Positions 11,444 through 31,491 of a stretch of DNA of 64,000 nt are shown in pieces; within the stretch, counting starts at the first letter, position 1; the number at the start of each line of letters is the position of its first letter. The notes beneath the pieces are model-generated. The model was given only the letters and a program-made list of their open reading frames with translations, made no database searches and was not told the origin of the DNA. The position numbers were made by a program, and so were the translations under genes. Location of the stretch: assembly GCA_944328665.1 (NCBI GenBank), contig CALVHS010000019.1, positions 1-64,000 of the forward strand. The letters run 5' to 3'. The DNA is from an uncultured Clostridia bacterium. GTDB taxonomy: Bacteria > Bacillota > Clostridia > Christensenellales > Borkfalkiaceae.

Positions 11444-11444
11444 A

Positions 11445-12812
<1,368 letters not shown>

Positions 12813-12813
12813 C

Positions 12814-13890
12814 CTATCGCCTCTGTTTGGGGTCGAGGGCGTCGCGCAGCCCGTCTCCTATAAAGTTAAAACCTAACACGGCTATGACGATACAGATACC
12901 CGAGGGCACCCACACCAAAGGATAATTCTGCAAAATGTCGCTCCGGCGGGAGATGATCTCGACCATCGTGCCCCAGGAAGCGTACGGGGTCTGCACGCCC
13001 AGCCCCAGATAAGAGAGGGTGGATTCGTAGAGGATCATGCTGCCGAGCGAGAGGGTCATGGTGACGAGGATCTGCGGCAGGACGTTGGGGATGAGGTGCT
13101 TGAAGATGCGGCGCATGGTGGAATACCCCATCGCCTCGGCGGCGACCATGTATTCCTGTTCGCGCAGGTATAAGATCTGCCCGCGCACCAGGCGCGCCAT
13201 GCCCGTCCACGACCATAGCGAGACGAGCCCCATCAACAGATAGATGTATAGCTGCGGGTCGACGTCGTTTGCGTCCAGCACGGTGCCGAGGATGAGCATC
13301 AGCGGCAGCGTCGGGAAACACATGAGGATATCGCCCAGGCGCATGATGACGTTGTCCACCACGCCCCCGTAAAAGCCCGCTATGCCGCCCAGCACGATGC
13401 CGATGAAAGAAATGAGAAAGACGGCGAGAAAGCTGAGCGTCAAAGAAAGCCTGCCGCCGTACATGAGGCGGGTAAACACGTCCATGCCCTGCTCGTCGGT
13501 GCCGAGCAGATGCTCGGAAGAGGAAGGCGCGAGGATATTGATGGGGTCATGCCCGACGATCAGCTGTTTGAAGCCGCCGTCCTCCCCTTCCACATCATGT
13601 ACCGAATAGATGGTATTGATGCCCGCGCGGTCTACTTCGATCTCTCCCCACTTGTCATAGATGACGGGGCCGAGCCAGCTGAACAAGACCAAAAAAACGA
13701 GCATGGCGATGCCGACGATGGATAGTTTGGAGCGGAAAAACCTCCGCAAGACCATGCGCATCGGCGACATCAGTTTGATGTTTTTATCGAGAGGAGTTTC
13801 TCCGTCCGCTCCGTCCGCGATCTCGGCGAGGGCAACATCCCCCGCCTCCTCGGCGGCGAGCTCTTTCAATTCAAGTTCGTCTTTATCCAT
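12814..13890 (-). CDS. oppC: Oligopeptide ABC transporter permease OppC
   Basis: Membrane permease of 358 residues. A cytoplasmic acidic N-terminus (about 1-45) is followed by a first membrane helix (about 57-76) and an enlarged extracytoplasmic loop ending in HLLGTDEQGMDVFTRLMYGGR, the OppC family motif. Five more helices follow. The EAA loop reads AAEAMGYSTMRRIFKHLIPNVLP, the site that contacts the ATPases. The C-terminus ends NFIGDGLRDALDPKQRR, typical of the family. It lies between oppB (14 bases upstream) and oppD. Confidence 0.95.
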   Translation of the reverse strand: MDKDELELKELAAEEAGDVALAEIADGADGETPLDKNIKLMSPMRMVLRRFFRSKLSIVGIAMLVFLVLFSWLGPVIYDKWGEIEVDRAGINTIYSVHDVEGEDGGFKQLIVGHDPINILAPSSSEHLLGTDEQGMDVFTRLMYGGRLSLTLSFLAVFLISFIGIVLGGIAGFYGGVVDNVIMRLGDILMCFPTLPLMLILGTVLDANDVDPQLYIYLLMGLVSLWSWTGMARLVRGQILYLREQEYMVAAEAMGYSTMRRIFKHLIPNVLPQILVTMTLSLGSMILYESTLSYLGLGVQTPYASWGTMVEIISRRSDILQNYPLVWVPSGICIVIAVLGFNFIGDGLRDALDPKQRR

Positions 13891-13904: not shown

Positions 13905-14891
13905 TTAAGCGAGTTTGACGCGCGGATCGACCACCGCATACATCAAGTCTGCGAGCAGCACGCCCAATACGGAAAGGCAGGCAAGGAACATATTATACGT
14001 CATGATGACGGGAATATCCCCCTGCTGCATCGCATTCAGCGCATAACTGCCGATACCCGTGAGGCTGAACACCTGCTCGGTGATCATGGCGCCGCTGAAC
14101 AGAGACGGGATGAGCCCCGCAAGGCTTGTGACCAGCGGGATCATCGTATTGCGGAAAGCGTGCTTATAGATGACCTTTTTTTCGTTCAGGCCCTTGGCGC
14201 GCGCCGTACGGATGTAGTCGGAATTGAGCACTTCGAGCATGTTCGTCCTCGTCATGCGCATGCGCGAACCGATGCTGAGGATAACGACGGTCATGATCGG
14301 CAGGCACATATGCCAGAGATAGTCCAGCATTTTAGAAAAGCCCGTCAAAGAAACGCCCGCCGACGCCATGCCGGACACGGGGAACCAGCCCAGCTTGTTG
14401 GCGAAGATATCCTTGAGCATCTGCCCGAAGAAAAAGGAGGGCAGCGAAATGCCGATCAGCACGAGCACGGTGACCACATAGTCGCGCACGGAATATTGAT
14501 GCGTCGCCGCCGTGATGCCGAGCGGGATGGCGATCATGAATTCGAAGATCACGGAGATGAAGGCGACAAAGAAAGAAGTGCCGATCCTGTCCGCGCTGAA
14601 GATCTCATCCAGCACCGGGCGCTGGCTGATAAAGCTGTTGCCGAAATCCCCGCGGAACACGTTGCCGAGCCAAGTCAGATAGCCGACAAAGATGTTGCCG
14701 TCCAGCCCGTAAGTGTGGTACATCTGCTGGATGAACTCCTCGCTGACCTCCGTGCCGTTCTGCACGAGCGTGAGGATGCGCTGTTCGACGAAGTCCGTCG
14801 GCATACAGCGGAGAAGCACATACAGGATAACGGAAACGCCGAGCAGCAAAAATATGGAAATGATGATCCTTTTCAGAATATATTTCAGCAT
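13905..14891 (-). CDS. oppB: Oligopeptide ABC transporter permease OppB
   Basis: The 328-residue partner permease with six membrane helices. The start MLKYILKRIIISIFLLLGVSVILY is the usual OppB N-terminal helix. The EAA loop is RTARAKGLNEKKVIYKHAFRNTMIPL near 232-257, and the C-terminus ends VDPRVKLA, matching the family's VDPR motif. It forms the transport channel with OppC. It lies 23 bases after oppA in the operon. Confidence 0.95.
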   Translation of the reverse strand: MLKYILKRIIISIFLLLGVSVILYVLLRCMPTDFVEQRILTLVQNGTEVSEEFIQQMYHTYGLDGNIFVGYLTWLGNVFRGDFGNSFISQRPVLDEIFSADRIGTSFFVAFISVIFEFMIAIPLGITAATHQYSVRDYVVTVLVLIGISLPSFFFGQMLKDIFANKLGWFPVSGMASAGVSLTGFSKMLDYLWHMCLPIMTVVILSIGSRMRMTRTNMLEVLNSDYIRTARAKGLNEKKVIYKHAFRNTMIPLVTSLAGLIPSLFSGAMITEQVFSLTGIGSYALNAMQQGDIPVIMTYNMFLACLSVLGVLLADLMYAVVDPRVKLA

Positions 14892-14914: not shown

Positions 14915-17530
14915 TCAGGCGATCAACTCGAGTTCCCACACCTTTTCGAGAGGGGAAGAATACGGGTTGACGTCTTTGTTGAATCCGCGGACGGTGTTGC
15001 TGTTGTAGGCAAACAGCTCCTGCCGCTGATAGACGGGCAATTCGACGGCGAGGTCGAGCACCAGCCCCATCGCATCCTCATAGAGGGGCTTTCTGTCATT
15101 CTGATCCATGCTTTCGCGCGCTTCGTCGATGATCTCGCTCAGATCGCGGATGATGGCATACTCCGTGCTGTACAGGGTGGTGTTGGACTTGATCTCGCGA
15201 TAGCCCCAGGCGTAGGTAGAGGTCGCCGTGGAGTTCATGTGATAGACCTGATACATATCGGGGTCGACTGTGGAGCCCCACGCCGCCGCCCAGACTTCGA
15301 GCGAGCCGGTGGCAAGTTTTGTAAGCGCCTGCGAATCCGCCTTCAGTTCGATATCCCAACCCATGGAGTTGAGGATCTCCATCGCCTGACGGAAGACGTT
15401 GTAACAAGGGTGTTCGGAAATGGAAGCGCCCGCGATGGTGAAGGTGATCTGCAGATCGGAAGGGCTTGCGCCCGCGCCGTTGTTCGCCGCATTCATGTAA
15501 CTGCGGATCTTTTCGCGCGCGTCCGTCTCGTCGATCCACTGCGTATAGTCATGCCCGTTCGGCTTGGAGGTGTTCCCGTCCGCCTCGAAGGGATATGCCC
15601 AGCTGACGCGGGACATCGGCCAGTCGATATTGACGCAGGTGCCCGCCTGATAATACGAGGTCGCCTGTGCGATATTCATGGCGGACATGATCGCCTTGCG
15701 GATATTGATATCGGGGACTTTGCCCGCGTTGATGCCGATATAACCGTAGCCGAGCTGCCAGGTGCTCAGGCTTTCGAAGCCGTCGCTTGCCATCGACGAC
15801 AGGCGGTCGGCATTGTCCTTGGTGAACTGCGGGACGACGTAGTCGACCGCGCCGCTTTCGAGGGCGTCGAGCGCATCGGTGGAGCTGTACACCTGCATGC
15901 GCAGCTTGTCCGCCTTGACGTCAAACATAAAGTTTTCGTTCGCCTTAAAGTAGACGATGTTGCTGCTCCAGAATGCGGAACCGCTCGGGTCGTCGCCGTT
16001 GTTCGCGTCGGTCGCGGCGAACGGGCCGGCGCCCACGGGCACTTCTACGTGCTGCTGCGACTGGATGACTTTCTGCTGGAAGTCGGAAGAGGCGTATTCG
16101 ACGCCGAACTGATTGTTGGCGATGTCGATGGGCCTGCCGTCCGGATGATCCTCGTCCGCGGTGTAATAATGGGCGGGCGCGACGGTGAAGCCGAAGTTGT
16201 AGATCGCCTTCGGGTCGGTGCCGTTGACGGTGATCCGCAGCACGTCGTATTCCGCGCTGTTCGCGGGCGTGCCGTCCGCGTTGTGATCGTGCGCGACGGT
16301 ATAAGTCGTATCGTTGACGACGACGGAAGTTTCCTCCGTCGTGTGGCCGAGAGAGACGACGCCGGAAATATTCGGATAGAGCAGTTTGCCGTCCGTTCCG
16401 AGGTTGTTGCGGAGGATGATGCCCGTCGCGTCGGCGGTGTAGAGCGTCTGCAAAGAGCCCGCCGTGCCCCACGTGGTCAAAATGGCGTTGAGGCCGGTCG
16501 TCACGTTGTCGTCATAGACGTGCTCGATCGCGTCTTCGCGTTCGGTGATGCGGTCGGCGATGCCGGCGCCGTCAAAACTTTCGATGACGCTCTTGTCGTC
16601 CCTGCCGTTCACCTGCTTATATTTGGGGGTGATATATCCCTCATAGAGGAAAAATTTGAAGGTATCGCTCTCCAGTTCCTCCGCCCAATCTTTATAAGGA
16701 GCGGTCGTCGTGTCATACGATTCGAGCGCGGCGATCCAGTCCCCTTCCAACTCTTCGCGGAAGGTGTCGAGGGTGGTCTGATAATCTTCGAGCAGCTGAG
16801 CGCGATAGTCCGCCTCCGTCCACGTCGCCTGTTCGGCCACGGTGGCGACGGCGTCCATGTATCCCGAAGAAACGCTCCAGCCGTTGATCGCTTCCTTCAT
16901 GCTCTCCTCGTCGAGGCTGAAGGAATCGGAAGTATCGGAGATGCGGCCGTTTTGTTCATAGATGTCGACCATCTCCAGGATACGCAGATAGGCATTCGCC
17001 GACGCCTGCTGCGAGATCTGCGATTCCGTCTCGTCATTGTCGGAGAGGTTCTGCTGCGTCCTGTATTGAGAAAGCCCCTCGATGTCGATGGAGTACATGG
17101 TCGAAGAACCCGTATAGACGGGGTCGAGGTACTCATAGATGTTGAACATGACGTCGTTCATGGTGAGGGGCTTGCCGTCCGAAAACTTCAATCCGTTTTT
17201 GATGACGAAGGTATAGACGGTCTTGGCGCTGTCGCCCGTGCCCGTGATCTCGTACTCGAAATCTTTGACGACGGTGCTCTCTTCGTCCCCGGCGACGGGG
17301 TCGCCGCTCGCATCCGTCGAAAGCATGCCGATCTGCGTCATGCCGACGACGTCCATATCCGGGCCCGACGTCGCATAGAAGGGATTGAACAAGCCGCTCA
17401 ATTCTTCCGTCATGATGACGATGCTGTCCTTTTTGACCGCCGTGCATGCGGAGATGGGAAGGACGATGCCCGCCATCAGCGCGCAGCTCATGGCGATCGC
17501 CAGCACTCCTTTTGCTCTGCCTTTAAACAT
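14915..17530 (-). CDS. oppA: Oligopeptide-binding lipoprotein OppA, enlarged
   Basis: Extracellular solute-binding protein (SBP_bac_5) feeding the Opp permease. At 871 residues it is much longer than the usual 530-600. Its signal peptide ends in a PISAC lipobox with Cys at about 29. The family opening (GLKFSDGKPLTMNDVMFNIYEYLDP, about 112-136) and the binding-domain motif VPVGAGPF (about 497) lie about 360 residues apart, against roughly 90 in typical OppA. That implies about 270 inserted residues, rich in acidic and amide residues. The C-terminal lobe resembles other OppA proteins. The start ATG lies inside the last codons of the preceding lipoprotein gene (8-base overlap), suggesting translational coupling. 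Confidence 0.9.
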   Translation of the reverse strand: MFKGRAKGVLAIAMSCALMAGIVLPISACTAVKKDSIVIMTEELSGLFNPFYATSGPDMDVVGMTQIGMLSTDASGDPVAGDEESTVVKDFEYEITGTGDSAKTVYTFVIKNGLKFSDGKPLTMNDVMFNIYEYLDPVYTGSSTMYSIDIEGLSQYRTQQNLSDNDETESQISQQASANAYLRILEMVDIYEQNGRISDTSDSFSLDEESMKEAINGWSVSSGYMDAVATVAEQATWTEADYRAQLLEDYQTTLDTFREELEGDWIAALESYDTTTAPYKDWAEELESDTFKFFLYEGYITPKYKQVNGRDDKSVIESFDGAGIADRITEREDAIEHVYDDNVTTGLNAILTTWGTAGSLQTLYTADATGIILRNNLGTDGKLLYPNISGVVSLGHTTEETSVVVNDTTYTVAHDHNADGTPANSAEYDVLRITVNGTDPKAIYNFGFTVAPAHYYTADEDHPDGRPIDIANNQFGVEYASSDFQQKVIQSQQHVEVPVGAGPFAATDANNGDDPSGSAFWSSNIVYFKANENFMFDVKADKLRMQVYSSTDALDALESGAVDYVVPQFTKDNADRLSSMASDGFESLSTWQLGYGYIGINAGKVPDINIRKAIMSAMNIAQATSYYQAGTCVNIDWPMSRVSWAYPFEADGNTSKPNGHDYTQWIDETDAREKIRSYMNAANNGAGASPSDLQITFTIAGASISEHPCYNVFRQAMEILNSMGWDIELKADSQALTKLATGSLEVWAAAWGSTVDPDMYQVYHMNSTATSTYAWGYREIKSNTTLYSTEYAIIRDLSEIIDEARESMDQNDRKPLYEDAMGLVLDLAVELPVYQRQELFAYNSNTVRGFNKDVNPYSSPLEKVWELELIA

Positions 17531-19124
17531 TGTCTGCCTCCTGCTTCTGATAATTTATTACATACGATGCGGCGTTTGTCCTGACTGTTGTCGTAAACGT
17601 GATCTCGATGTTGCCGTCCGCATCTACTGTGATATCCGGCTGTACGGGGTTGCCCTGTTCATCTTCGACAAAGCGTACCGTAAAGTTATATTCCCCGTTC
17701 CTCAGGTCTGTACCGTAAACGGTGAGCCCCACGTCGCCTTCCACGATGAGCCCCGACCTGTCGGCGCCCACATCCGTATTGGCGACGAGATTGAACATCG
17801 GCCCGCTGCCCGGGGTAATGGCGCCGATCTGCATCGCCGCCTCCGAAAGGGTGACGTTTTCAATCTGCGCGCCCGCACAGATGTTGCCCGCAAAAACGCC
17901 GAACATGAGATCGCGCAGGCGCTGCCCCGCGTTCACGATATCGAGGGTGACCTTCGCAAAGGAAACGTCGCGGATGACCGCGCCTTCCGCCACCTGACCG
18001 AAGAGCCCGCCGTATTGCGCGTTCCTGCTGTTGTGGGTGACGGTGACGTTGCGGATCGTGTAATGCTGCCCTTCCGTGCTGTAAAACCTGCCCGTGAACG
18101 AGTTGTTGCTCAGCGCCGCGGGCCACGCGGCCTCTCCTATGCCGAAGTCGAGGTCGGCGAGGATCTCGTACCAACCGTCCGCATCGCCGTGCGCGGCAAG
18201 CTGCCCCGCGTTTTCGATGCGGTAGCGCGTGCCTTCGACAAATTTTACATAGATGTTCTGCACGCGGCCCTCTGCGGTGCCCGTATCGTAGTCGACGGTG
18301 CCCACATGTTCGAAGGAATCTTCGATCTGCCGGGTACACGCCTCGTCGGTATAGGCGGCGTCAAAGGTGTATCCTTCCCGCTCGGGGAAACGGAAACGGC
18401 TGTTGTCCGCATAGTTGTGCTGATAATTCATGGCGCCGTCATCCCAGCGCGGGATCCAGATGGTATCCCTGTCGGCGGAATCGGAACCGGCGGCGTTGGT
18501 CGTCTTATAGTCGAAATCGGTGACGCCATACTGCACCCATTCTCCGTCTTCCTCGTAAAAATAGCGGAATTCGAAGTACGGCACCCAACCTGCATACAGC
18601 GTGAGAGAGTACGTTCCCGAAGCGGAGACGGTCAAAACGTCCTGCGTAAAATCCCAAGGATCCGCATAGGTATAGGCGGGATATCCCACCGTCTGCGTGC
18701 CCGCAAGGACGTAAGTGCCGTCCTCCGTCTCTTCGAGGGGGGCGCCGCTTTCGTCCACGGGAGCGCCGCTTTCGTCCGTGACGATCGTGCGCGTCTTATA
18801 CCATCCTGCGAGAAAATATCCCGTGCGCGTGAGCGTGATCGGCGAATCGCTGCCCGAAGGGCGGTCTTGGTCTGTCGGGTCGACCAGTTTGATGTTGACG
18901 TTGCCGTCCTCGTCCTCCTCGTATTGCGAGGGGTCGAACATGTCGACGATCATGATCCCGTCGCGGCCCATAAAGGCGCCGCCGTTGGAGTCGTACGATA
19001 CCGTGACCACATATCCCTCTTGCTCGAGCTGCTCGATCTCGTTCAGCTCCGCGCAGGCGGCGGCGCCGCAGCACAGCGCGCTTACGCCGAGCAAAAGCAG
19101 GCAAATTTTCAGCTTTTTCATCAT
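17523..19124 (-). CDS. Surface lipoprotein with InlB-type and GLUG-like segments
   Basis: A 533-residue predicted lipoprotein: basic N-terminus, hydrophobic core and a GAAAC lipobox (Cys about 24). The N-terminal half contains stretches of the InlB/Listeria-Bacteroides repeat type, such as VTVSYDSNGGAF and GYFLAGWYKTRT. The second half has a beta-helix-like region with NAGQLAAHGDADGWYEILADLDFG and YGGLFGQVAEGAVIRDVSF, which look like GLUG motifs of cell-surface proteins. The C-terminus is a beta-rich domain (FTVRFVEDEQGNP..ITFTTTV). It lies between the subtilisin and oppA and overlaps oppA by 8 bases, so it is probably a binding accessory of the import operon. Exact function unknown. Confidence 0.8.
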   Translation of the reverse strand: MMKKLKICLLLLGVSALCCGAAACAELNEIEQLEQEGYVVTVSYDSNGGAFMGRDGIMIVDMFDPSQYEEDEDGNVNIKLVDPTDQDRPSGSDSPITLTRTGYFLAGWYKTRTIVTDESGAPVDESGAPLEETEDGTYVLAGTQTVGYPAYTYADPWDFTQDVLTVSASGTYSLTLYAGWVPYFEFRYFYEEDGEWVQYGVTDFDYKTTNAAGSDSADRDTIWIPRWDDGAMNYQHNYADNSRFRFPEREGYTFDAAYTDEACTRQIEDSFEHVGTVDYDTGTAEGRVQNIYVKFVEGTRYRIENAGQLAAHGDADGWYEILADLDFGIGEAAWPAALSNNSFTGRFYSTEGQHYTIRNVTVTHNSRNAQYGGLFGQVAEGAVIRDVSFAKVTLDIVNAGQRLRDLMFGVFAGNICAGAQIENVTLSEAAMQIGAITPGSGPMFNLVANTDVGADRSGLIVEGDVGLTVYGTDLRNGEYNFTVRFVEDEQGNPVQPDITVDADGNIEITFTTTVRTNAASYVINYQKQEADNV

Positions 19125-19142: not shown

Positions 19143-22100
19143 TTAAGCGTTGCGCTTATTGTTTTTCTTGAGCAAAATGATCCAGACGGTGAGCCCGATA
19201 ACGGCGAGCAGCAATACGCCCGCAATGATCAGCCCGACCATATTGTCTTTGAAGAATTCCGACGCCGCCGAAGGCTCTTCGACGGGTTCGGGTTCGGGCT
19301 GGGGCTCCCTCGTCTTGAGGTAAGCGAGCGCCCTTTCCGCCGCCGTGAGCCTGTCGACGTTGCTTACGAGCGACTTTTGCTCGACGGAAGAGATGCCGTC
19401 ATATGCCGCGCGCGCCGCGACGATCGCCCCTTCGTCCGCGAGGGTCACGGACGCCGAATCCGGAAGCTGCGCGATCAGGGCGATGACCTCGAGCGTGGCC
19501 TGCATGGCGGCAGGGTCGCCGTCGACGGTCACGCCGAAGTAGAGGCCGAGGACAAAGCTGTCATAGCCCTGCCCGTTGGAGGGGCGCACCATAACGATCT
19601 GCCTGTCCACATGCCCCACATGATCGACAAAGTTGGCGCCATAATAGTAGTTGCTGCCGCCGCCCGTGCCGACATTCCACATAAAGTAATCGATGATGCC
19701 GAGGCCGCCCGCATTCTGTGCGAAGGGCACGTTCTCTTCCGTGGCGTAGGAGACGTCATACTCTTCTTCGAGCATGGGCGCTTCATACCCCTTGAACACG
19801 ACCATGTACAGATCGTCGCAGCCGTAGAACGCCTTATCGCCGACGGCGCGCAGAGTGCTCGGCAGGGTCACGCTCTTGAGCGGCGCGCCCGCAAAGGCGC
19901 GCGCCGTCACGCGGACGGTGCCGTCCGCCGCGGTGAAGTCCTCGTCCTGTTTTGCCGCCGGGTACGAGACGAGCTCAAGCCCGCCCGGAACGACTTGATA
20001 CAGCACGCCGCCGATGACGCGCACGGTCTGGCTGACGTCATGATCCTCGGTCAGCCGCTGCCCGACGACGCTGCCGTTAAAGATGACGTCCTCCTGCTTG
20101 CCGAACGTCTCGATGGCGCAGCCGTAGAAAGGATTTTCTCCCAAAGCGGTCAGCTTGTCTCCGAACGTGACGGAAGTGACCGCGGAATCGGCAAAGGCAA
20201 AATCGCCGATATACGCCGCGTTCGTGAGGACGGGCGACGTGAGCGCCGTGCCGGCAAAGGCGTTGCCGCCGATCGCGGCGACGCCGGAAAGGTCTGCCTC
20301 CGCCAGGCCGTAGCAGTATGCAAACGCCCCTTCCGCGAGTTGTGCGCCGTCTTGCAGCAGGACGCTTTCGAGCGCGGTCTGCGCAAAGGCGTAGGCGCCC
20401 ACGCTGCCGACGTGCGAGAGGTCTGCCTGCCGCAGCGCCGTGCCGGCAAAGGCATAGCCGCCGATCGCGGAAATTTCCGCGGGCAGGTCGATCTGCTCCA
20501 ACGCAACATTGTACGCGAACGCATAGGCGGGCACCGCCGCAAGCGAATCGCCGAAGACGACGGAAGAAAGCACGCCGTTGTAGGCGAACGCGCCCTCGCC
20601 GAGGACGGCGGCCTTGCTTAAATCGACAGAGACGAGCTGCGCCGCCGCACCGGAAAATTTATAATCGGTCGGGACGAGCTCCCCGTCGGCATACGCATAT
20701 TCATAGGCGGGAGAAATGACATTGTTTTCCAGACACAGATCCATTGCCATTGCCCCCGAGAAGGCATACGCTCCGACGGATACGGCTTTTGACAGATCGA
20801 CGGAGCGCAGCGCCGCCGCGTTGAAGAAGGCGTAATCGCCGATCTCGGCGCCGCTGCCCAAGGTGAGATCGGTCAGCCTGCCGTTCCCCGCAAAGGCATA
20901 CGCCCCCAATTCGGTATCGGCGCCGATCTGCACTTGCGTGAGGGCAGACAAAACGCCCGCGGAGAAATCATAGCGATAATAATTGTAGACAGATCCGTCC
21001 TCCGCCGTATACGTGTACGCCGTATAATAGCTGAAATTCGACAGCGTGCTCTCATCGGAAAGATCGCACAGATACAGCTCCATCGGGTTGGAAAAAGCGT
21101 AGTCGCCCACGACGACGCCGTCACCCAATACGACCTTTTCGAGAGAGAGGCAATAGGCAAAAGCGCCCTCGCCCAAAACGGTCTTGTCCGCGATCTGCAC
21201 CTCGGTTATATCGGTATACGCAAACGCATACGCCCCCACCGACGTAACGGCGGAAAGGTCAGGAAGTTCCGCAATGGCAGTACCGAAGAAAGCGTAATCG
21301 CCTATCTGCGTCACCTGCGGTATGGATACCCAATGCAAGTTCGTACAATCGGCAAACGCATACGCCCCCACGCTGACGGCATTAGGAGCCGTCACGCTGA
21401 ACAATTTTGTGTTCCCCGCAAACGCGCCGTTTGCAATGGACGTCGCATCGATCGTGATGGAGTTGCCGGAGCGGCCGGGCGCGACGAGGATGAGCTCTCC
21501 GCTCTTATATACGAGCGAGCCGCCCTCTTCGAGGGTCAGTTCCTTGTTCTGCGGGCTGAGCGCAAAAGAAGAAACAGCCGTGCCCGCAAACGCATATTCG
21601 CCGATGACGGAAACATCCCTGCCGAGAGTGACGTCGGAAAGGCGCACGCTGTTATAGAAAGCATAGGAAGCGATGACCGACGCATTGATATCGACCGTCA
21701 CGAGCAGAGGGCATTCCGCAAACACATAAGAACCGATCTTGATGCGGGACGCGCCGATGCGCACATCCGTCAGAGAATCGCAGCCGTAGAAGGCGCCCAT
21801 ACCGAGCGACCGGCAGGAAGCGGGCAGATCGAGATAGCCGATATCGCTGTCGGCAAAGGCATAATCGCCGATCGCCGCCATCGAATCGAGGCTGACGCTC
21901 GTCAGCGCCGTGCCGCGGAACGCCTCTTTATTGACGAACTGCACATGTTCGAGGTTGATCTCCTTCAAGCTCGTGCAGCCGTAGAAGGCGCCCATGCCGA
22001 TACGGTTGAGCGTGGACGGGAGCGTGACCTTTTCGAGCGCGGTCAGCCCCGCAAACGCATACTGCTGGATATCGGTGACCCCCTCGGGGATGACGATCTC

Positions 22101-25100
22101 CGTGATGGTATTTTCGCCGATATAGACGGGCTTGGTGTTCAGCGGATCTTCCTCGTCGATGACGTCGCCCGCCGTCAAGTCCTTGGGAACGTATTCGTAG
22201 TTGGAGAACGCATACTGATAGATGGTCGTGATCCCCCTGTTGTCCGGGATCTCCACCTTACCGCCCAGCCCCTTATAGGACATGAGATAGATGCTGTTGA
22301 TCGTGAACGGGTCTTTGACCGTGACCGTGATGCGCTCGGAATACAGCGTGTTCCTGCCGTCGAAGGTGACGTTCACCGTAACGATCGTCGTCCCTTCCTC
22401 CTGCGCGACGATGGTGCCGTCCTCCGTGACGGTCGCGATGCGCGCGTTGCCCGAACGGTAGGTGACCGCCGTCCTGTCGGGGAAGTACGAATCGAGCAAG
22501 TAAGAAAGGGTCACGCTTTCCGAAGGATACATCGAGAGGGTATAATCCCCGCCGAAATCGTAACTCGCGCCCGTGACGCCGATCTCCCTTTCCTCCGAGG
22601 ACATGCCGTAATACGCCTTGTTGACCGTATAGCCCGTGAGGGTGAAGTTATTGACTTCCGGCACGGTATAGCCGCCCTGATAGCCCTCATCCCCTTCCGC
22701 GAGCACGCGCACGGTGACGGTGTCGACGACGGGGTTGCCCTCACGATCGTATCCCGTCGCCGTGATCGTGGTCGTGCCGCTCTGTTTGGCGAGCACGGTC
22801 TGGTTGATCACTTCCGCGACGGTGGCGTCCTCCACCGTGAAATCGATCATCTGCACCCAGCTTTCGGAAGGATACACGTTCAACACGGAAGAGATATCCA
22901 GCGTCTCGTTGGGGCTCAGGGCGATCTCGTCCTGCGTGAACGCCAGGGCAAGGAAATCGTCGGGGAGACGGATCTCGAACATGGACTGGTTCAGTGCATA
23001 GTCGTAGCAGACGGCGATAAAGGAGTTGTTGTCCTCTTCCAGCGTGAGGGAACCGTCCGCGCCGAAATGATACCCGTCGGACTGCTTGATCTGCTCGATA
23101 TAGTCGGTGAGCTCGATGGTCACGACGGAGGTGGAATTAAAGGAGGAATAGACGGGCGTCAAATACTTGCCGAAGGAGGAAAGCATGAAGCCGCCGTCTT
23201 CAAGCGTGACCTGCCCCGCCTGCACCGCCATCGCATAATGGTTGTCGTAGATGCTCAGGTCGGCAAAATAGGTGGTCTTTTTCGTCGAACGGTCGTATTC
23301 CGTGCGGAAAACGACGTCCGTCACGGCAGGCGCCTCGAAGTCGACGAACAGCGGGAAAGTAAAGGTGTTGCGCACATTCTTCTGCTCTTCCTTTCCGCCG
23401 TAGTCGATATATGCGGACACGGTGACCGTGTACTGCGTGTTGTTTTTGAGATCTTGCTCGAGCGCGCTGAATTCGACGTCGATGGAGGACTGGACGATCG
23501 CCGCCCCCGTATTGTGCGATTTGTATTGATTGTAGGCGGTGCGGCTGAAAATTTCTCTGCCCGTCGAATCTTCGACGATGGAAATATCCACTTCTTTGGC
23601 GTTGCGCAGCAAGCCCGCCCAAATATATTCGACGCTGTTGACCGCGGATGCGGCGCCGTCGCGGTAATTGGAAATGGCGATATGCTCTTTGCTCGCCGCG
23701 ATCTGCGTGGATGCGGGATCCTGCGTAAAGGCATAGCTGCCAAGCGTCAGGATGTAATCGTCGTACAATCCGCCGACCGCGCGGGTCGCATATGCGTCCG
23801 CCATCAGCTTGTCCTCGGGATCGAGGCCGGCGTTGAGTTCGTCGGGGTTGGTATCGTAAAACTCCTCGTCGAAGATGGGCGCTTCCGTCCAGTCGCCGTA
23901 AAAGGCGAGCATCGGGATGCTCATGTCGACGTCGGTACCGCTCGACGCGTCCAGCGTGATAAATCCTTCCACATACATGCCGTGCGCGAAGGAATCGTCC
24001 AAATATTTTTTGTCCTCGTCGGAGAGCACGATGCGCAGCGTGACGGTGGCGGTGCCGTGTCCGTTCACCGTGATGCTGTTGCCGCTCTGCGTGCCGCCCT
24101 CCACGCCCGTGACCGTCATCTCCGCCCCTTCGAGCAGATAGCCGTCCATCGTGACGGTGGTATCGCCGTGGCTGGTGTAGGTCGTGCTGACGCCCTCGGT
24201 CATCACGATCGAGGAAAGGTCGTACGTCACCGCAGAGCCGCTGATGTTGTTGATGTCGAACTTCATCTCGTAGACGCCGCTCTTTTCCTTGTCGTCGCCC
24301 AGCTCCAGTTTGGTCTTGTCCATCCGGTTGCCGTCGACGTCGTATGTAGTGATATAGGATGCGGAAGAGGCCGCCTTCGAGATATTGACGAGCCCCGCGC
24401 CCTGTTTGCGGACGGCATACGGAAGCCCGTTTTTATTGTAGACGATATCCGCCGTGGACATCATCAGCTGGTTGGCGAGCGCGGTGACGTCCGTCGCCGG
24501 CACGTTTTCGCCGAACACGCCGCTGTATTTGACATACTGGCGGATGAGCGCTGTGGCGCCCGCCTGGTTCGGCGCCGCCATGGAGGTACCGGAAAGCCTG
24601 TCATACCCCTGCCCCGGCACAGCCGAATAGATCTCGCCGCCATGCGCGGTGATCTCCGGCTTGATCTTCAGATCGGAAGTCGGCCCCCAGGAAGAGAAGT
24701 CGGACATGAACGGGCCCGCCGTCTGGTCGCGGCTGATGCGGATGACGCCCGTCTCCTGTGCGGCGAGCAATTCGCCGTCATCTTGCGAAACGGAGCAGAC
24801 CGCGCCGATATCGGCGCCGACGGACATAGAAATGGTGCCCGATACGTTGTTGTAGATAATGATGCCCGCGGCGCCCTTCTCCTGCAGGGCGACGCGCACC
24901 TTGTCCTCAAAGGAGGTCGTGCCGCGCTTGACGAGCACGATCTTGCCGGCATAGAACTCGTCTTCGTACGTATAGTCGGAAGAACGGCCGATGCCGGGGA
25001 TGGTGACATATTCGAAGTCATGGCTCTGCACGTCCGAGCCGAGCGTGGAGAGCACATCGTCGACAAAATCCTTCTTTTCCGTATCGGAGGTGGAAGCCTC

Positions 25101-26417
25101 GTTGAAATAGATGATCTGATCGCCGAACAACAGATACGGCGTCTTGACGCCGTCGACGGAGGCGACCGAGAGGGACGCGTCATACGTCGCGGGCGAACCT
25201 ACCGTACCGGAATCGGGATTGGACGTCAGACCGTTGCTGCCGTTCTTTTCGGAGTTGAAGGTCGCGTTATAATCGTTGGAAGCCGCGGCGATCAGCGAGA
25301 TGCCCGCATCCTTGATCCTGTCATAGATATCGTTGACGTTTTCCTCGTCCACCTCGCGCGAAAAGCCGCAGGAAGTACCGAGAGACATATTGATGATATC
25401 CACGCCGAGTTTGACGCAGTCCTCGAGCGCGGCGAGGATGGCGGAAGTCTTGGCGCCTTCGGCATAGTCGGAAAACACCTTCATGATGGCGAGCTGCGCG
25501 TTGGGCGCGACGCCCGTGATCTCGTCGTCTTTGCCCGCAATGACGCCCGCCACGTGCGTGCCGTGATCGGAATTGAGGGGGAACACGTCGCTGTCCTTGT
25601 CGCCGTAGTCGTACGCATACGGAACTTTGCGGCTGACATAGACGTCTTCGGCGGTCAGCCCGGGATTATAGCCCGCGGCGACCGTCTCTCCGATCTTTTC
25701 GGAAATGCTCTGCAGCGTGAACGCCTCGGTGGAGGAGGTAAAATTGCTCTCGCTGAAAGCGGTGTGCGTATAGTCGAGGCCGGTATCGAGCACCGCGACG
25801 ACGACGCCGTCCCCTTGGTACTCGGAATCGGAACTGTCGAAAATACCCGTCTCGTAGACGTCCACCTCGTTGGTGACGACCTCGGTGACGGCGGCAGGCT
25901 CATACTCTTCGCCGACGATCACCGTAGAGCCGGAGAGCGCCTTCGATACCTTGGCGAAATCTTCGGCGCGGACGGTGATCTCGAACCCGCTGAAAAGGGT
26001 GTCATACGATTCGCCCGCCGTATAGGCGATGCCCGCTTCCGACAATTTGGCGAGGAGTTTTTCCCCTTCCGCCTCCGCCCTGCGGGAGACATTGCGCGCC
26101 TTGACCGTCGCCGCATACTCGCTCAGCGAAAGGCTGCTGCCGCTCTTTTCGTACGAATCCATCACGGATTCCGCATCCGTTTGCACGATCAGAGAGATAT
26201 TCTGCCCGTCCGAGACCGTATCCGGAAGCCGATAGACGACATCGCCGTCAAAAAAGTTTTCCGCACCCGTCTCTAAAGAGCCGGACACCTTGCTGATCGT
26301 ACTGTATTTGCCCGCGCCGGCGCCGCCGGAGCGATCCGCAAGCGCAACGCCCGTGAACAGGCATGCCGAGCAGAGCAGCGCCAACAGCCTTATGGCAGTT
26401 TTCCTGAATGTAACCAT
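19143..26417 (-). CDS. Giant cell-surface subtilisin (S8) fused to BspA-type leucine-rich repeats
   Basis: A 2424-residue secreted protease. It has a signal peptide (about 1-27) and a pro-region, then an S8 catalytic domain with Asp in AVLDTGLDYTH (about 210), His in DHGTHVAGVIAG (about 285) and Ser in SGTSMAAPNQAG (about 609). A PA-like insertion separates His and Ser, as in lactocepin-type enzymes. Fn3-like regions and at least two Big_2-like domains (about 1180-1370) follow, then LRR_5 repeats from about 1376 to 2210 (AFYGC, YAFAGT units). A C-terminal segment ends in a membrane helix and KKNNKRNA tail. No LPXTG motif is present. The ATG at 26417 is preferred over 26432 because AAGGA is correctly spaced. 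It probably digests external proteins for Opp import. Confidence 0.92.
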   Translation of the reverse strand: MVTFRKTAIRLLALLCSACLFTGVALADRSGGAGAGKYSTISKVSGSLETGAENFFDGDVVYRLPDTVSDGQNISLIVQTDAESVMDSYEKSGSSLSLSEYAATVKARNVSRRAEAEGEKLLAKLSEAGIAYTAGESYDTLFSGFEITVRAEDFAKVSKALSGSTVIVGEEYEPAAVTEVVTNEVDVYETGIFDSSDSEYQGDGVVVAVLDTGLDYTHTAFSESNFTSSTEAFTLQSISEKIGETVAAGYNPGLTAEDVYVSRKVPYAYDYGDKDSDVFPLNSDHGTHVAGVIAGKDDEITGVAPNAQLAIMKVFSDYAEGAKTSAILAALEDCVKLGVDIINMSLGTSCGFSREVDEENVNDIYDRIKDAGISLIAAASNDYNATFNSEKNGSNGLTSNPDSGTVGSPATYDASLSVASVDGVKTPYLLFGDQIIYFNEASTSDTEKKDFVDDVLSTLGSDVQSHDFEYVTIPGIGRSSDYTYEDEFYAGKIVLVKRGTTSFEDKVRVALQEKGAAGIIIYNNVSGTISMSVGADIGAVCSVSQDDGELLAAQETGVIRISRDQTAGPFMSDFSSWGPTSDLKIKPEITAHGGEIYSAVPGQGYDRLSGTSMAAPNQAGATALIRQYVKYSGVFGENVPATDVTALANQLMMSTADIVYNKNGLPYAVRKQGAGLVNISKAASSASYITTYDVDGNRMDKTKLELGDDKEKSGVYEMKFDINNISGSAVTYDLSSIVMTEGVSTTYTSHGDTTVTMDGYLLEGAEMTVTGVEGGTQSGNSITVNGHGTATVTLRIVLSDEDKKYLDDSFAHGMYVEGFITLDASSGTDVDMSIPMLAFYGDWTEAPIFDEEFYDTNPDELNAGLDPEDKLMADAYATRAVGGLYDDYILTLGSYAFTQDPASTQIAASKEHIAISNYRDGAASAVNSVEYIWAGLLRNAKEVDISIVEDSTGREIFSRTAYNQYKSHNTGAAIVQSSIDVEFSALEQDLKNNTQYTVTVSAYIDYGGKEEQKNVRNTFTFPLFVDFEAPAVTDVVFRTEYDRSTKKTTYFADLSIYDNHYAMAVQAGQVTLEDGGFMLSSFGKYLTPVYSSFNSTSVVTIELTDYIEQIKQSDGYHFGADGSLTLEEDNNSFIAVCYDYALNQSMFEIRLPDDFLALAFTQDEIALSPNETLDISSVLNVYPSESWVQMIDFTVEDATVAEVINQTVLAKQSGTTTITATGYDREGNPVVDTVTVRVLAEGDEGYQGGYTVPEVNNFTLTGYTVNKAYYGMSSEEREIGVTGASYDFGGDYTLSMYPSESVTLSYLLDSYFPDRTAVTYRSGNARIATVTEDGTIVAQEEGTTIVTVNVTFDGRNTLYSERITVTVKDPFTINSIYLMSYKGLGGKVEIPDNRGITTIYQYAFSNYEYVPKDLTAGDVIDEEDPLNTKPVYIGENTITEIVIPEGVTDIQQYAFAGLTALEKVTLPSTLNRIGMGAFYGCTSLKEINLEHVQFVNKEAFRGTALTSVSLDSMAAIGDYAFADSDIGYLDLPASCRSLGMGAFYGCDSLTDVRIGASRIKIGSYVFAECPLLVTVDINASVIASYAFYNSVRLSDVTLGRDVSVIGEYAFAGTAVSSFALSPQNKELTLEEGGSLVYKSGELILVAPGRSGNSITIDATSIANGAFAGNTKLFSVTAPNAVSVGAYAFADCTNLHWVSIPQVTQIGDYAFFGTAIAELPDLSAVTSVGAYAFAYTDITEVQIADKTVLGEGAFAYCLSLEKVVLGDGVVVGDYAFSNPMELYLCDLSDESTLSNFSYYTAYTYTAEDGSVYNYYRYDFSAGVLSALTQVQIGADTELGAYAFAGNGRLTDLTLGSGAEIGDYAFFNAAALRSVDLSKAVSVGAYAFSGAMAMDLCLENNVISPAYEYAYADGELVPTDYKFSGAAAQLVSVDLSKAAVLGEGAFAYNGVLSSVVFGDSLAAVPAYAFAYNVALEQIDLPAEISAIGGYAFAGTALRQADLSHVGSVGAYAFAQTALESVLLQDGAQLAEGAFAYCYGLAEADLSGVAAIGGNAFAGTALTSPVLTNAAYIGDFAFADSAVTSVTFGDKLTALGENPFYGCAIETFGKQEDVIFNGSVVGQRLTEDHDVSQTVRVIGGVLYQVVPGGLELVSYPAAKQDEDFTAADGTVRVTARAFAGAPLKSVTLPSTLRAVGDKAFYGCDDLYMVVFKGYEAPMLEEEYDVSYATEENVPFAQNAGGLGIIDYFMWNVGTGGGSNYYYGANFVDHVGHVDRQIVMVRPSNGQGYDSFVLGLYFGVTVDGDPAAMQATLEVIALIAQLPDSASVTLADEGAIVAARAAYDGISSVEQKSLVSNVDRLTAAERALAYLKTREPQPEPEPVEEPSAASEFFKDNMVGLIIAGVLLLAVIGLTVWIILLKKNNKRNA

Positions 26418-26457
26418 CGTATCTTCCTTCATTCTCCTGATATGCTATCGGCAAAGT

Positions 26458-29400
26458 TTATGCCTGCTCTTCCTCTTCGGCGGGGACTTCCGTCACAACG
26501 GCAGCCCCGTCCTCGATAAGGATCGTATAAACGTCACCGGTGATCAACGTAACGGTATACGTTTTCGTCTGTTCGTCGTATGTGCTCTCCGTGACCGCGT
26601 ACGCGTAAGAACCGCGGACAAAAAGTTTGACCGTATTGCTTTCGACGGCGATGTCGACATATCCTCCGTCTTCGGTATAATAGGTCGCGGCGCTTTCCGC
26701 TGCGAGGGTGGCGCTTGCATAAACGGGGATGATCGCATCATCCTCCTCACCGACTTGCTCGCCGGTATCTTCGACGAGGACGATCTTATAATAGGTGGAA
26801 GAAAGGATCTTGCCTTCCTCCTCCGACCCTTCCGGCATCTCTTCGCGCGTCCTGGTGACAAAATATACGTCTTCGCCGATATAGCCCTTCCAATCGGCTT
26901 CGATCGGCGTGCCGTCCTTCGACAGCTGCACATCGAAAAGTGAACCCGCCGCAAAAGCTTCGGATCCGACGACGCGTCCCACCGTGACCGTGATCCCCGT
27001 CTCCGCGTCAACGAAATCTTGATACCTTACCAACGCATACAACTGGAATCCGTACGTCCCGACATAGTTGTTATACGCCGCGACAAACAGAAGTTCATAC
27101 TCATATCCGTCCGCACCGGTAAAGGAAGCGCTGTATGCATTGTCGCCCAAACTTTCATAGCGCACCTTTTCCATTTCAAACGGCTCGCCGTTTGCATCAC
27201 AAACGCCCGTCGTTTCGCCCAGCCAAAAGTTCAAGTAGGGATCGCCCGCGACGCCTGCCTCGTCATAATCCGTCATGAGGGAGATCTCGCCCATGCTGTT
27301 TTCAAAGACGTTCGCCGTGGCAGAACCGTAGAAGAGATAGACGAGATAATAAAGGGTCAGATACTGATTGGCGGGAAGCTCGCTGATCAGCCGCATGCCC
27401 GTAATGGTATAGGTCCCTGCCCCCGCGGCGCTGCCGCGGTAATCGACCGAAATATCAAACCTGTAATAGGACAAGCCGCCCATCGTCGGAAGCCTGAGAT
27501 ACATCTCGTATCCGTCCTCCGTCTGTTCGCGGACGATCGTACAATTATTGTAAGGATCTCCTCCTACATATACCGTACCGGCGACCGCGAATTCAGATCC
27601 GCCCGAAGGCGTGAAATACAGCGTGGCGAGCGCCTCTTTGATCTCCGTGCCGTCGTCTTCGACTTCTACGAGCACGGGATACTGCCCTTCCGTCCCTTCC
27701 GCCCTTTCAAACGTGAGGCGGAATCCGTCGTTTGCGTAATACGTTTTGCCTTCATATTCGATAGATTCGCTGAACGAGGGAAAACTTGTGCTGTCCTCGA
27801 CGAACCCGTATTCGTTGGCATCTTCGGAAGAGGGATCTTGCAAATAGATGATCACTTTTCCGTCCACGACATTGTAGTAATACCGCGTTTCTCCGTTAAA
27901 CACCGCGAATCCGTACGAAGTAAAGAGCAGCGACTCAAGATCGGACGTATAATATGCATGTTCGCTGGGGATATCCACGGGGGACATCGTCCCGTCCGCA
28001 TTGTCATACGTATAAAGAGAAGCGTCCGTGCCTGCCGCATTGGCATAATAAAGCAGATCGTCCGTGATCACCGTATAGGTGCCCGACTCCGCCTTGCCCG
28101 TCCCGTCGTATCTGGTAACGTTGCCGTAACCGTCCAGCATAAGGACAGACCAGTCATCCCTGTTCACATAGACGCGAACAAATTCGCTGTAATGGATGAC
28201 GAAGACATTGACCGTCTCGGAACCGCCGATGCTATAGACCCGGAGCGAACCGAAGACGGTAAGTTCCGTGCTCGCGTCCTCTTGATAGGTCACGGTCACG
28301 GAGCCGTCATCGTGCACCGTATAAGAACCGCTTTCGTCGATATAGGAGATCTCGTCCTCGACTACCGTAAATACAGCCGCATTGCCGTATCCGTCAAGGC
28401 GGACATACCTGTCGAGGAACATCTGATTGTCCAGGAAAAGGAAATTGCCGTATTCTTCGCCGCGCACCGTAAAGGACGTCAGATCCGTGTCGGTATAGTC
28501 AAAGAAGAAATATCCGGACGACGTATACAGGACAAGGACCTTTTCGGAGATCTCGTCGGACGAGAAGAAATACATCCCGGTATAATTGCTGCCGTCGGGC
28601 GCCGTGTAGCGCGCGCCGAAGCCGAAGCCGTCCAGTTCAAGGATGCCCGCCGTTTCCGAAGCATACGTGCCCCGACCGATCTCTTGGTTGTATTTCGCAA
28701 AATACGTGACATTCGAAGCGGATGCCAACACGAAGTCGAACTGCATGCCGTCCGCCGTAAAAGTATACACGGTCATGCCGAAAGCGGTGGCGCCCGTTTC
28801 CTGGAACGTACCGATATGCTCCTCTTCCCCGGAGGTATACACGGCGCCGCCCTTGCCGTCAAATTGCATCGTTTCGGCAGCAGACGTCGTCCCGTCCGCA
28901 AGGATGACACGGGCGGTATACGGCGCCGTTTGCAGGAAATAATAGGTGAGCGTTTCGGGATCCGTTTCCACATACAGATATCCCGATACCGTTCCGTTAT
29001 TCGTCACGGCGATCCCGATCACGTTTTCGCTGCCGCTGACCGAGGAATATGCCCCCACATAGCGGTTGCCGCTCTGCTCGAGAACGGCAAACCCGCCCAC
29101 CAAAGTGAGCTTGCCGCCCGCAACGTTCGTGCAGGTATACTGCTGCGCATACTCTTCTTCCGCTGCCGTGCCGTCTTCCGTTTCGATCACCGCGGAATGC
29201 CAGTAGTTGACATAATAAATATTATCGTTGCTCGCCGTGGTGATCGTAACGGCGAAGATGATGCTCTTAATCGCGGTGAGATCCACAAAAGTGGCGGATA
29301 CTTCCGCATCGACGGGTTCACCGACTACCGTAAACAGATACAGTTCGCTTGCCGGATCATATTCATATGTGCCTTGCGAGATGAACAGATATTCCTGCGT

Positions 29401-31491
29401 CTCGACGTTATATCCGTATAAGGACGCCCAACCGTCCTGATGGTCGTTGAGAACGATCAGGGGCGCATAATAGATCGAGCCGTCCGACTGGTACTGATAC
29501 TCGGAATAGCCGATCGGCTTTTCGACATAAGAATCGACCGTGACCTCTTCTTCTCCGGAGCCGATCGTCTCCGACTCTACGATAAAGACACGCTCCTGCC
29601 CTTGCGCGGAAACAACGGATATGACGTCGCCGCCGAAAACGGAGGATCTTTCGATCGAATAATATCCTGTCTCCGTGACCGAGCCGTTCGTGTAGGTGGC
29701 GTTATACAGGCCGTCGAGCACGAGCGTACCGCCGTCCGTCCCCGTATACGTCCTGTCGTACTCCTCCATATAGAGCATGTAGCCCTTCATGCCGTTAAAT
29801 TCAACGATGCGCACGACGCCGGCTTCTATCCCGTAGGTACTGAGCAGCGTGAATTGCGTTCCGTCCTCGTTCATGACGTAACGGTAGGATACGGACGAAT
29901 CGCCGTTGTTCATCACCGCCGTTTCAAAGCCGTTCAATGTGATCCCGAGATATTCTTCCCTGTAATAAACGACCGCGCCGTCCGCAATGGCGAAGCGAAC
30001 GAGCGTCCCGAGGGCAACGTGCTCTTCGTTGCGCACCATGAAAGCGGGGCGGGAAGCGCCGTCCACTTCTGTACTGCCGACGCTGATGACGAGCGTCTGC
30101 CCCGCGAGATCGCCGCTCTCAAACGCGACGTGATAATACCCGTCTTCGTCGATAGAATATTCGCCCTGAGAATTGCTGTTGTATCCGGACTCATCCTGCA
30201 CGGTATACGTGATCCCGTTGTAGCCGTCGAAAACGATGCGCGTATCGTCAACAAGTCCCTGGCCGACTACATACAGCGTCGCGGTATACCCCCTCGACTC
30301 GTTATAATAAGAAAAGGTGCCGTCCTCGTTCAGCCTGCCCTGCGCCATCAGCTCGTTCAACGTATCGTCGATGAAATTGAACTGACGGCTCTGCGCGTCG
30401 TATTCCCCTTTGAAATAGACGTCGCCCCTGCACAGATAGACATCGGCAGCATCTTCTTCAAAGAGGAAAATATAATCGTCGCCGCCGAACATGTCCGTGT
30501 AGCCTTTGTTCCACACGGCGTACAGCGCCATGTTGCGCTCGGGGGTGAACGTATCCGTCTGCGCTTCGGCGCCGCCTTCCTTATTATAAATAAGAGAATC
30601 AATATGATTCAGCTTGTACGCAGGTTCTCCGTCGGCACTGGTCGCCCAGCCGGAAAGGAAATATCCTTCGAACGAATAATCGACGGGAAGCTCCACCTCT
30701 TCGCCGTAATACACTTGCCGCGTATCATCGGCGGCAGAAGACCCGTCCGGATAATTTGCCAAAAAACGGACGGTATACACTTCCCTGTCAAAATAAAGTT
30801 TGAGTACATTGTCCTCAGCGCTCTCCGTGAGCACCAACTGCGAAACTTCGTCGCCGTGCGCAACGCGGCGGAATCCGGTGACCGTCTCTTCGGGAGCGAC
30901 CGTCGTTCCCACATAATCGCTGTCCGAGACCGACCCCGTCTTCTCATATCCGTCGAGCGTCAGCGTTTGCGTCCAAAGTTCGACGGTGTATTCCACCTTA
31001 TATTCGGCGCGCAGCGTGATGCCTTCCTGCGGCATGCGCTCATTCCGCGCAAGTTCTTTGTCTCCGTAGAACCATGCGCCGAAAGTGAACCCGCTCTTGG
31101 AAGGGATGTAATCCTGCATGAAATCATAGATGACTTCGCCGCTCTTCAAATAAAGGGTCGTCCCCGCATCGAGCGATCCGCCGTTCAGTTCAAGGGTGAT
31201 GGCGCCGAGCTGCTCCCATTTGGCATATACCGTCATATCTCCCGTCGGGGTGACCGATGCGACGGCGTCACCGGAAAAGTCCTCGGAAAGGTACCAGCCT
31301 TCAAAGCTGTACCCCTCGCGCTCCGGCGTAGGCAGCACATATTCCTGCCCCGGCTCTACTTCCGCGGCAGAAATGCTCGCTCCTCCGTCTGTATCAAAAG
31401 ATATGGAATACGTCTTTGCGCCGCAGGAGACCGCCAGCGCACTTGTCGCCAAAAGAAACATCAGCGACAAAACCAACAAGAATTTTTTCAT
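26458..31491 (-). CDS. Large repeat lipoprotein (InlB-type N-terminus plus about nine copies of an 80-residue beta repeat)
   Basis: A 1677-residue predicted lipoprotein (lipobox AVSC, Cys about 23). Residues about 24-330 hold several InlB-type beta-grasp units (ISFDTDGGASI, GYSFEGWYLSEDFSG, MTVYAKWEQ). From about 410 to 1200 a motif of the form LDGYGNAxY...G...GxYxV recurs at residues about 418, 505, 590, 690, 795, 874, 951, 1031 and 1118, a period near 80. I do not recognise this repeat. The C-terminal third is acidic and beta-rich and ends EVPAEEEEQA with no membrane helix. It is the first gene of the protease-Opp operon, with a clear promoter and a GAGGAG ribosome site. Probably a surface binding protein. 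Confidence 0.85.
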   Translation of the reverse strand: MKKFLLVLSLMFLLATSALAVSCGAKTYSISFDTDGGASISAAEVEPGQEYVLPTPEREGYSFEGWYLSEDFSGDAVASVTPTGDMTVYAKWEQLGAITLELNGGSLDAGTTLYLKSGEVIYDFMQDYIPSKSGFTFGAWFYGDKELARNERMPQEGITLRAEYKVEYTVELWTQTLTLDGYEKTGSVSDSDYVGTTVAPEETVTGFRRVAHGDEVSQLVLTESAEDNVLKLYFDREVYTVRFLANYPDGSSAADDTRQVYYGEEVELPVDYSFEGYFLSGWATSADGEPAYKLNHIDSLIYNKEGGAEAQTDTFTPERNMALYAVWNKGYTDMFGGDDYIFLFEEDAADVYLCRGDVYFKGEYDAQSRQFNFIDDTLNELMAQGRLNEDGTFSYYNESRGYTATLYVVGQGLVDDTRIVFDGYNGITYTVQDESGYNSNSQGEYSIDEDGYYHVAFESGDLAGQTLVISVGSTEVDGASRPAFMVRNEEHVALGTLVRFAIADGAVVYYREEYLGITLNGFETAVMNNGDSSVSYRYVMNEDGTQFTLLSTYGIEAGVVRIVEFNGMKGYMLYMEEYDRTYTGTDGGTLVLDGLYNATYTNGSVTETGYYSIERSSVFGGDVISVVSAQGQERVFIVESETIGSGEEEVTVDSYVEKPIGYSEYQYQSDGSIYYAPLIVLNDHQDGWASLYGYNVETQEYLFISQGTYEYDPASELYLFTVVGEPVDAEVSATFVDLTAIKSIIFAVTITTASNDNIYYVNYWHSAVIETEDGTAAEEEYAQQYTCTNVAGGKLTLVGGFAVLEQSGNRYVGAYSSVSGSENVIGIAVTNNGTVSGYLYVETDPETLTYYFLQTAPYTARVILADGTTSAAETMQFDGKGGAVYTSGEEEHIGTFQETGATAFGMTVYTFTADGMQFDFVLASASNVTYFAKYNQEIGRGTYASETAGILELDGFGFGARYTAPDGSNYTGMYFFSSDEISEKVLVLYTSSGYFFFDYTDTDLTSFTVRGEEYGNFLFLDNQMFLDRYVRLDGYGNAAVFTVVEDEISYIDESGSYTVHDDGSVTVTYQEDASTELTVFGSLRVYSIGGSETVNVFVIHYSEFVRVYVNRDDWSVLMLDGYGNVTRYDGTGKAESGTYTVITDDLLYYANAAGTDASLYTYDNADGTMSPVDIPSEHAYYTSDLESLLFTSYGFAVFNGETRYYYNVVDGKVIIYLQDPSSEDANEYGFVEDSTSFPSFSESIEYEGKTYYANDGFRLTFERAEGTEGQYPVLVEVEDDGTEIKEALATLYFTPSGGSEFAVAGTVYVGGDPYNNCTIVREQTEDGYEMYLRLPTMGGLSYYRFDISVDYRGSAAGAGTYTITGMRLISELPANQYLTLYYLVYLFYGSATANVFENSMGEISLMTDYDEAGVAGDPYLNFWLGETTGVCDANGEPFEMEKVRYESLGDNAYSASFTGADGYEYELLFVAAYNNYVGTYGFQLYALVRYQDFVDAETGITVTVGRVVGSEAFAAGSLFDVQLSKDGTPIEADWKGYIGEDVYFVTRTREEMPEGSEEEGKILSSTYYKIVLVEDTGEQVGEEDDAIIPVYASATLAAESAATYYTEDGGYVDIAVESNTVKLFVRGSYAYAVTESTYDEQTKTYTVTLITGDVYTILIEDGAAVVTEVPAEEEEQA
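28050..30250 (-). repeat. Tandem ~80-residue LDGYGN-type protein repeats within the 1677-residue lipoprotein
   Basis: Repeat starts can be placed at about 30239, 29724, 29110, 28870, 28640, 28401 and 28140, with two weaker copies between the first three. Spacing in the best part is 77-87 residues. Each copy has a hydrophobic residue, [LF]DG, an aromatic, G, A/T, Y/F, a short acidic segment, then G[TSE]Y. DNA identity between copies is low, so the repeats are old. Confidence 0.7.

Follow-up and report, generated by a model that had tools for sequence, protein, structure and literature searches.

A putative LRR-armed cell-surface proteinase and its linked oligopeptide importer in Christensenellales

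In Lactococcus lactis, the lactocepin PrtP combines an S8 protease domain, carrying a PA insertion, with an Fn3-like A domain and is displayed at the cell surface; the peptides that it releases are taken up by Opp (PMC7783315). It is attached covalently to peptidoglycan and further comprises B, H and W regions, of which W is suggested to be an adhesin; modelling has led to the suggestion that PrtP hands its peptides over to OppA (PMC7783315). Peptidases joined to BspA-type leucine-rich repeats (LRRs) are described from Trichomonas, in one case as a BspA-like protein with a partial S8 domain (PMC2843621) and otherwise as M8 and NlpC/P60 peptidases (PMC11288935). Here we analyse a bacterial gene in which a complete S8-PA protease and a BspA-type LRR array occur in one chain. 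It lies in a window of 64,000 nucleotides (the whole stretch of DNA under analysis) from an uncultured Clostridia bacterium of the Borkfalkiaceae, order Christensenellales, and comprises the following parts.

19143..26417, minus strand: S8-PA-Fn3/Ig-LRR_5-TM protease gene; 2424 aa from Met6, 2429 aa if read from the first ATG at 26432
26337..26417, minus strand: predicted Sec signal peptide, residues ~6-32, ALA/D end (sequence)
25863..26255, minus strand: putative pro-region, residues ~60-190, a poorly conserved stretch ahead of the catalytic domain (relatives' alignments)
24393..25814, minus strand: Peptidase_S8 domain, residues 207-680 (Pfam E 7e-45; D216, H290, N386, S617)
24771..24980, minus strand: PA insertion in S8, residues 485-554 (Pfam E 2e-11)
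23781..24362, minus strand: Fn3-like A domain, residues ~691-884 (profile alignment to 7edd; fn3_5 in relatives)
22278..22952, minus strand: Ig-like region, residues ~1161-1385 (one Big_2 match and AlphaFold2 model)
19788..22259, minus strand: BspA-type LRR array, residues ~1392-2215, about 28 repeats of ~22 aa (Pfam, sequence, AlphaFold2, Foldseek)
19293..19532, minus strand: small helical domain, residues ~2301-2380 (predicted helices; conserved block)
19170..19241, minus strand: C-terminal transmembrane helix, residues ~2398-2421, then KKNNKRNA (sequence; no LPXTG)

The gene ends at a stop at 19143 and lies in an open reading frame of 2429 codons (19143-26432). Because the start methionine of relatives aligns with Met6, we take 26417 as the probable start, in agreement with the 2424-residue chain of the first-pass annotation, and keep 26432 as a possible alternative. 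An N-terminal hydrophobic segment is present in nearly all relatives, and the poorly conserved residues that follow would be a propeptide. Long mirror ORFs run throughout the region and can mislead gene calling, an example being an antisense ORF of 1780 aa at 20934-26276 on the plus strand. One antisense frame passed the translation check; strands were then fixed by tblastn, and the large antisense ORFs were rejected as genes, being mirror images of a GC-rich gene.

The first-pass annotation, made from the sequence alone, had read a complete S8 triad and a PA-like insertion, and both readings hold. Pfam places the S8 match above its cut-off, the triad D216/H290/S617 and the oxyanion N386 are invariant in two alignments (of 11 and 19 relatives), and a domain search finds PA inserted in S8 in 19/19 relatives. 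Protease activity is predicted from these domains and conserved catalytic residues, and this is the only S8 gene in the genome. In a profile search with residues 1-1440, the best solved relative is the C5a peptidase 7edd (query 200-884, E 2e-98), and the other closest ones are the cell-envelope proteinases 5xyr and 6vjb (SpyCEP/ScpC) and 31mr, matching over S8, PA and the first Fn3-like domain; the substrates of ScpA and SpyCEP/ScpC are host-immune. The Fn3-like A domain directly after S8 is recognised through the family-profile alignment to 7edd, with fn3_5 detected in 16/19 relatives and not by Pfam in the window copy itself. PA within S8 and an A domain behind it place the protein with the cell-envelope proteinases of lactocepin/C5a-peptidase type. 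It had been proposed that the LRR array replaces Fn3-like domains, which is incorrect: the A domain is kept and the LRRs come after it. The Big_2-like domains proposed ahead of the array survive as a single weak match (residues 1321-1353, E 3e-5, barely above the Pfam cut-off), but the region from S8 to the LRRs is not Big_2 alone, as the A domain stands first.

The chain ends in the small helical domain, a Pro/Glu linker, one membrane helix and a basic tail. Scanning GTDB representatives yielded 421 relatives, of which we kept the best 80; the 64 complete copies among these all have the C-terminal membrane helix (64/64) and none has LPXTG (0/64). LPXTG is likewise absent from the window copy, which differs in this from a lactocepin in the strict sense, anchored to peptidoglycan through LPXTG and sortase, and which scores 250.5 bits against the NCBIfam cut-off of 1400 for the SGO_0316/SGO_0317 LPXTG-anchored serine peptidases. 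We found no sortase in the window's genome (92% complete), so the helix is the default anchor of this genome and not a strain-specific swap. The suggestion that a plain transmembrane helix takes the place of sortase anchoring was thus right about the helix and the missing LPXTG, and wrong if taken as a special event in this genome, an idea that we reject.

The strongest clue to function was absent from the earlier reading of the protease gene and lies downstream of it, where the genes encode the SBP_bac_5 binding protein, two permeases and two ATPases of an oligopeptide ABC transporter.

26458..31491, minus strand: Flg_new (Listeria-Bacteroides repeat) protein, 1677 aa, lipoprotein-like N-terminus, 25 nt upstream of the protease
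17523..19124, minus strand: partner lipoprotein (LPP), 533 aa, lipobox Cys24, InlB B-repeat-like modules and other beta domains
14915..17530, minus strand: OppA, 871-aa oligopeptide-binding protein (SBP_bac_5)
13905..14891, minus strand: OppB permease
12814..13890, minus strand: OppC permease
11445..12812, minus strand: OppD ATPase
10283..11488, minus strand: OppF ATPase, start codon uncertain

The successive gaps from the protease through LPP, OppA, B, C, D and F, all on one strand, are 18, -8, 23, 14, 1 and -44 nt, and we infer that protease through oppF are transcribed together; a promoter and terminator scan of the locus gave results at chance level. OppA is the only SBP_bac_5 protein found in the window's genome. 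Like the 871-aa window copy, its relatives (~830-1000 aa) are well above the usual OppA size of ~550-600 aa. A GH127-type beta-L-arabinofuranosidase gene (7522-9831, minus strand) adjoins the opp genes. On the other side, the 1677-aa Flg_new neighbour was seen only in nearer relatives. Upstream of the LRR, Flg_new and protease genes, a MoxR AAA ATPase, DUF58, BatA-like and VWA proteins stand in a row (34551-42453, minus strand), VWA homologues holding that place in nearer relatives. Several LRR_5 proteins are encoded in this genome; one of them, of BspA type and 3322 aa long (42631-52599, minus strand), has Flg_new repeats besides its 21 LRR_5 stretches and no protease domain.

LPP is confidently modelled (pLDDT 91), and its lipobox Cys24 is invariant in the alignment; Foldseek gave no match at E <= 0.001, and the InlB B-repeat-like modules are its only recognisable parts. 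In 9/64 relatives (L075, L077, L078, L082, L089, L091, L095, L108 and L119) LPP is fused to the protease. These chains have ~2940-3040 aa, no separate LPP gene accompanies them, and LPP matches their C-terminus at 30-36% identity (E 2e-44 to 3e-63). The LPP part comes after the membrane helix known from the other copies and a further hydrophobic segment, so that it would again face outward. Such natural fusions suggest that the parts work together.

The gene order protease-LPP-OppABCDF recurs, fused cases apart, in the genome-scan loci with enough flank, and a second subfamily has the order OppABCDF-protease. In 85 of the 104 protease-positive genomes of the family, OppA lies on the same strand within 15 kb of the protease; contig breaks account for many of the remainder, but in G120 and G126 the two genes seem genuinely apart. 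Opp genes also lie close to the protease in 15/19 further loci (L146-L164), drawn from other families of the order and other genera of this family and spanning eight GTDB families. The fetched flanks of L149, L153, L156 and L161 show no Opp, nor do those of the two f6 loci (L143 and L144), and these cases, like the two separate genomes, count against a scavenging unit. Within the genus, this OppA is present in 7/8 protease-positive genomes (in the eighth, L027, it is cut by a contig end) and in 0/32 protease-negative ones. Across the 201 genomes of the family, 102 have both genes, 2 the protease only, 7 this OppA only and 90 neither, giving a Fisher p of 8e-46 for genomes that share ancestry and are not independent. 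One protease-only copy is cut and the other is a 64-aa fragment, and five of the seven OppA-only genomes are only 61-80% complete. LPP occurs in 54/201 family genomes, all but one of which (G081, 61% complete) also hold the protease. Other SBP_bac_5 proteins are present in 12 genomes of the genus that lack the protease; the link therefore concerns this OppA and not peptide uptake in general, which can do without this protease, a further point against a scavenging unit.

Taken together, we think it probable that a cell-surface proteinase feeds a dedicated oligopeptide importer here, the two making up a unit that scavenges protein and imports the resulting peptides. The mechanism that we propose builds on what cell-envelope proteinases and Opp importers are known to do. 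The protease chain would be exported by Sec and then shed its pro-region. Its C-terminal helix would keep it in the membrane. The catalytic head (S8, PA and Fn3) would be the outermost part, and a long arm of fixed length, made up of the Ig-like segment and the solenoid of ~28 LRRs, would lie between head and membrane. This arm may set the position and reach of the head and bind the protein to be cut, or else the mucus or cell surface bearing that protein. Peptides cut by the head from extracellular protein would be set free close to the membrane; OppA, probably with the help of LPP, would catch them there for import by OppBCDF.

Pheromones, too, can enter Bacillota through Opp systems, and the protease might accordingly mature or destroy peptide signals that Opp imports. 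We give this very little credence: an unsystematic look beside the operon revealed no signal-peptide gene or peptide-binding regulator, and a 2400-residue surface protease would be a costly tool for such a role. The protein could also be an adhesin-protease directed at host or microbial surface proteins, in the way of C5a peptidase and SpyCEP, in which case the Opp genes would be mere neighbours. That its nearest solved catalytic relatives are host-directed streptococcal proteinases, that BspA-like proteins are found mainly in mucosal microbes (PMC2843621) and that more LRR_5 surface proteins are encoded among the neighbouring genes would all suit such a role, which we nonetheless consider quite improbable, given that one particular OppA almost always accompanies the protease and does so in two different gene orders.

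What the LRR array does bears on how a scavenging unit would work. Pfam finds LRR_5 in 7 stretches (E 3e-100), in line with the ~830 residues first proposed, and in the AlphaFold2 model of residues 1165-2360 the array forms an LRR solenoid with pLDDT mostly 90-97, for which Foldseek's best PDB matches are BspA-type LRR proteins from bacteria of the gut and mouth. The fusion of an S8-PA protease of cell-envelope-proteinase type to a BspA-type LRR array is thus borne out by Pfam, profile search and structure model; against the NCBIfam HupY/LrrG LRR adhesin cut-off of 1250, the window protease reaches 110.3 bits. Array length is nearly constant among relatives (gaps of 0-0.11 per section, occupancy 0.96), which speaks for the proposed unit and does not support an adhesin array that grows, shrinks and shuffles its repeats. 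The LRRs are among the faster-evolving parts of the protease, a point against that unit: relatives of about 60% overall identity match S8/PA at 0.73-0.78, the Fn3-like domain at 0.66 and the first, middle and last LRRs at 0.61, 0.46 and 0.52, nearly gap-free throughout, and per-column entropy is 1.74 for the LRRs and 1.02 for S8-PA. Exposed strand positions are conserved in separate repeat groups (1456-1479, 1611 and 1843-1887). The arm is in sequence terms of fixed length and moderately, not hyper-, variable, with conserved patches, which fits a binding or spacing element of a fixed kind.

The earlier suggestion that the protease brings its own substrate-recognition arm is compatible with these features and may be correct. 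LRR_5 proteins without a protease are common in this genome, so the LRRs may instead have been recruited for adhesion, which would speak against a scavenging unit. Within such a unit, the solenoid might also serve as a stiff stalk, or give LPP and OppA a place to dock, instead of being a substrate arm; the constant repeat number, the first LRRs (beside the Ig-like segment) being the best conserved of the array, and the presence of LPP on the protease chain in the nine fused relatives all point that way. We consider this unlikely, although it deserves attention: BspA-type LRR solenoids are usually regarded as ligand binders, and a pure spacer needs no conserved exposed patches, which docking would fit.

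S8-LRR_5 proteins form a family, as the survey of fusions called for by the first-pass annotation shows: a homologue is present in 104/201 sampled genomes of the family, 109/396 of the order and 23/398 of the phylum. LRR_5 is absent from the examined homologues outside the order, the cell-envelope proteinases outside this clade have no LRR, and even within the order, GTDB family f11 has proteinases without LRR. In a maximum-likelihood tree of 49 S8 domains, which left out 11/60 rows with unclear domain limits, including most subfamily-B rows of the genus, the LRR-bearing forms fall on one side of a branch (99/96; 200/200 bootstrap trees). This topology fits a single LRR acquisition, and the interleaving of f3, f19 and f32 within the LRR-bearing side fits either transfer or old duplication with loss. 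With long homologues in more than 100 genomes, a strain oddity or chimeric assembly was ruled out. Some protease copies (L041, L043 and L044) carry one in-frame stop (TAA or TAG) in the matched region; they are possibly pseudogenes or assembly errors. A broader proposal, which we find plausible and hold only tentatively, is that of a protein-utilisation locus of gut Christensenellales, in which a membrane-anchored proteinase of single origin with an LRR arm, a dedicated LPP and a dedicated OppABCDF are gained, lost and exchanged together, the LRR arm and LPP handing peptides to OppA at the membrane, as a protein-directed counterpart of polysaccharide utilisation loci.

Several described systems share parts of this locus. 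ScpA (C5a peptidase, 7edd) and SpyCEP/ScpC (5xyr, 6vjb) of Streptococcus are the best solved relatives over residues 200-884, but the LRR part of the window protease matches none of them. The BspA-type LRR surface proteins 4gt6 (F. prausnitzii) and 4fs7 (B. ovatus), PcpA 4cp6 and TpLRR 6mlx have the same LRR_5 solenoid without a protease head. The Trichomonas proteins likewise join BspA LRRs to a peptidase, once S8, but they are eukaryotic, their S8 is only partial and they have no link to a peptide importer. BspA-LRR/peptidase fusions are thus already known from Trichomonas; in the literature searched, with most subscription journals outside its scope, we found no paper on such a bacterial architecture and no description of a bacterial S8-LRR proteinase or of its coupling to Opp. 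With PrtP, the window protease shares S8 with its PA insertion, the A domain, predicted surface display and a connection to Opp. It differs in having an LRR_5 array and a membrane helix where lactocepins carry B, H and W, in the lack of sortase in its genome and in the placement of protease and opp genes in one gene run. The breakdown of protein in the gut has been charted less fully than that of polysaccharides, and a recognisable conserved gene set would let genomes reveal protein scavenging in the mostly uncultured Christensenellales (Borkfalkia and relatives). An idea from dairy bacteria, the direct transfer of peptides from a surface proteinase to OppA (PMC7783315), likewise becomes testable: in Lactococcus the hand-over was suggested from modelling, whereas here the genes themselves are coupled.
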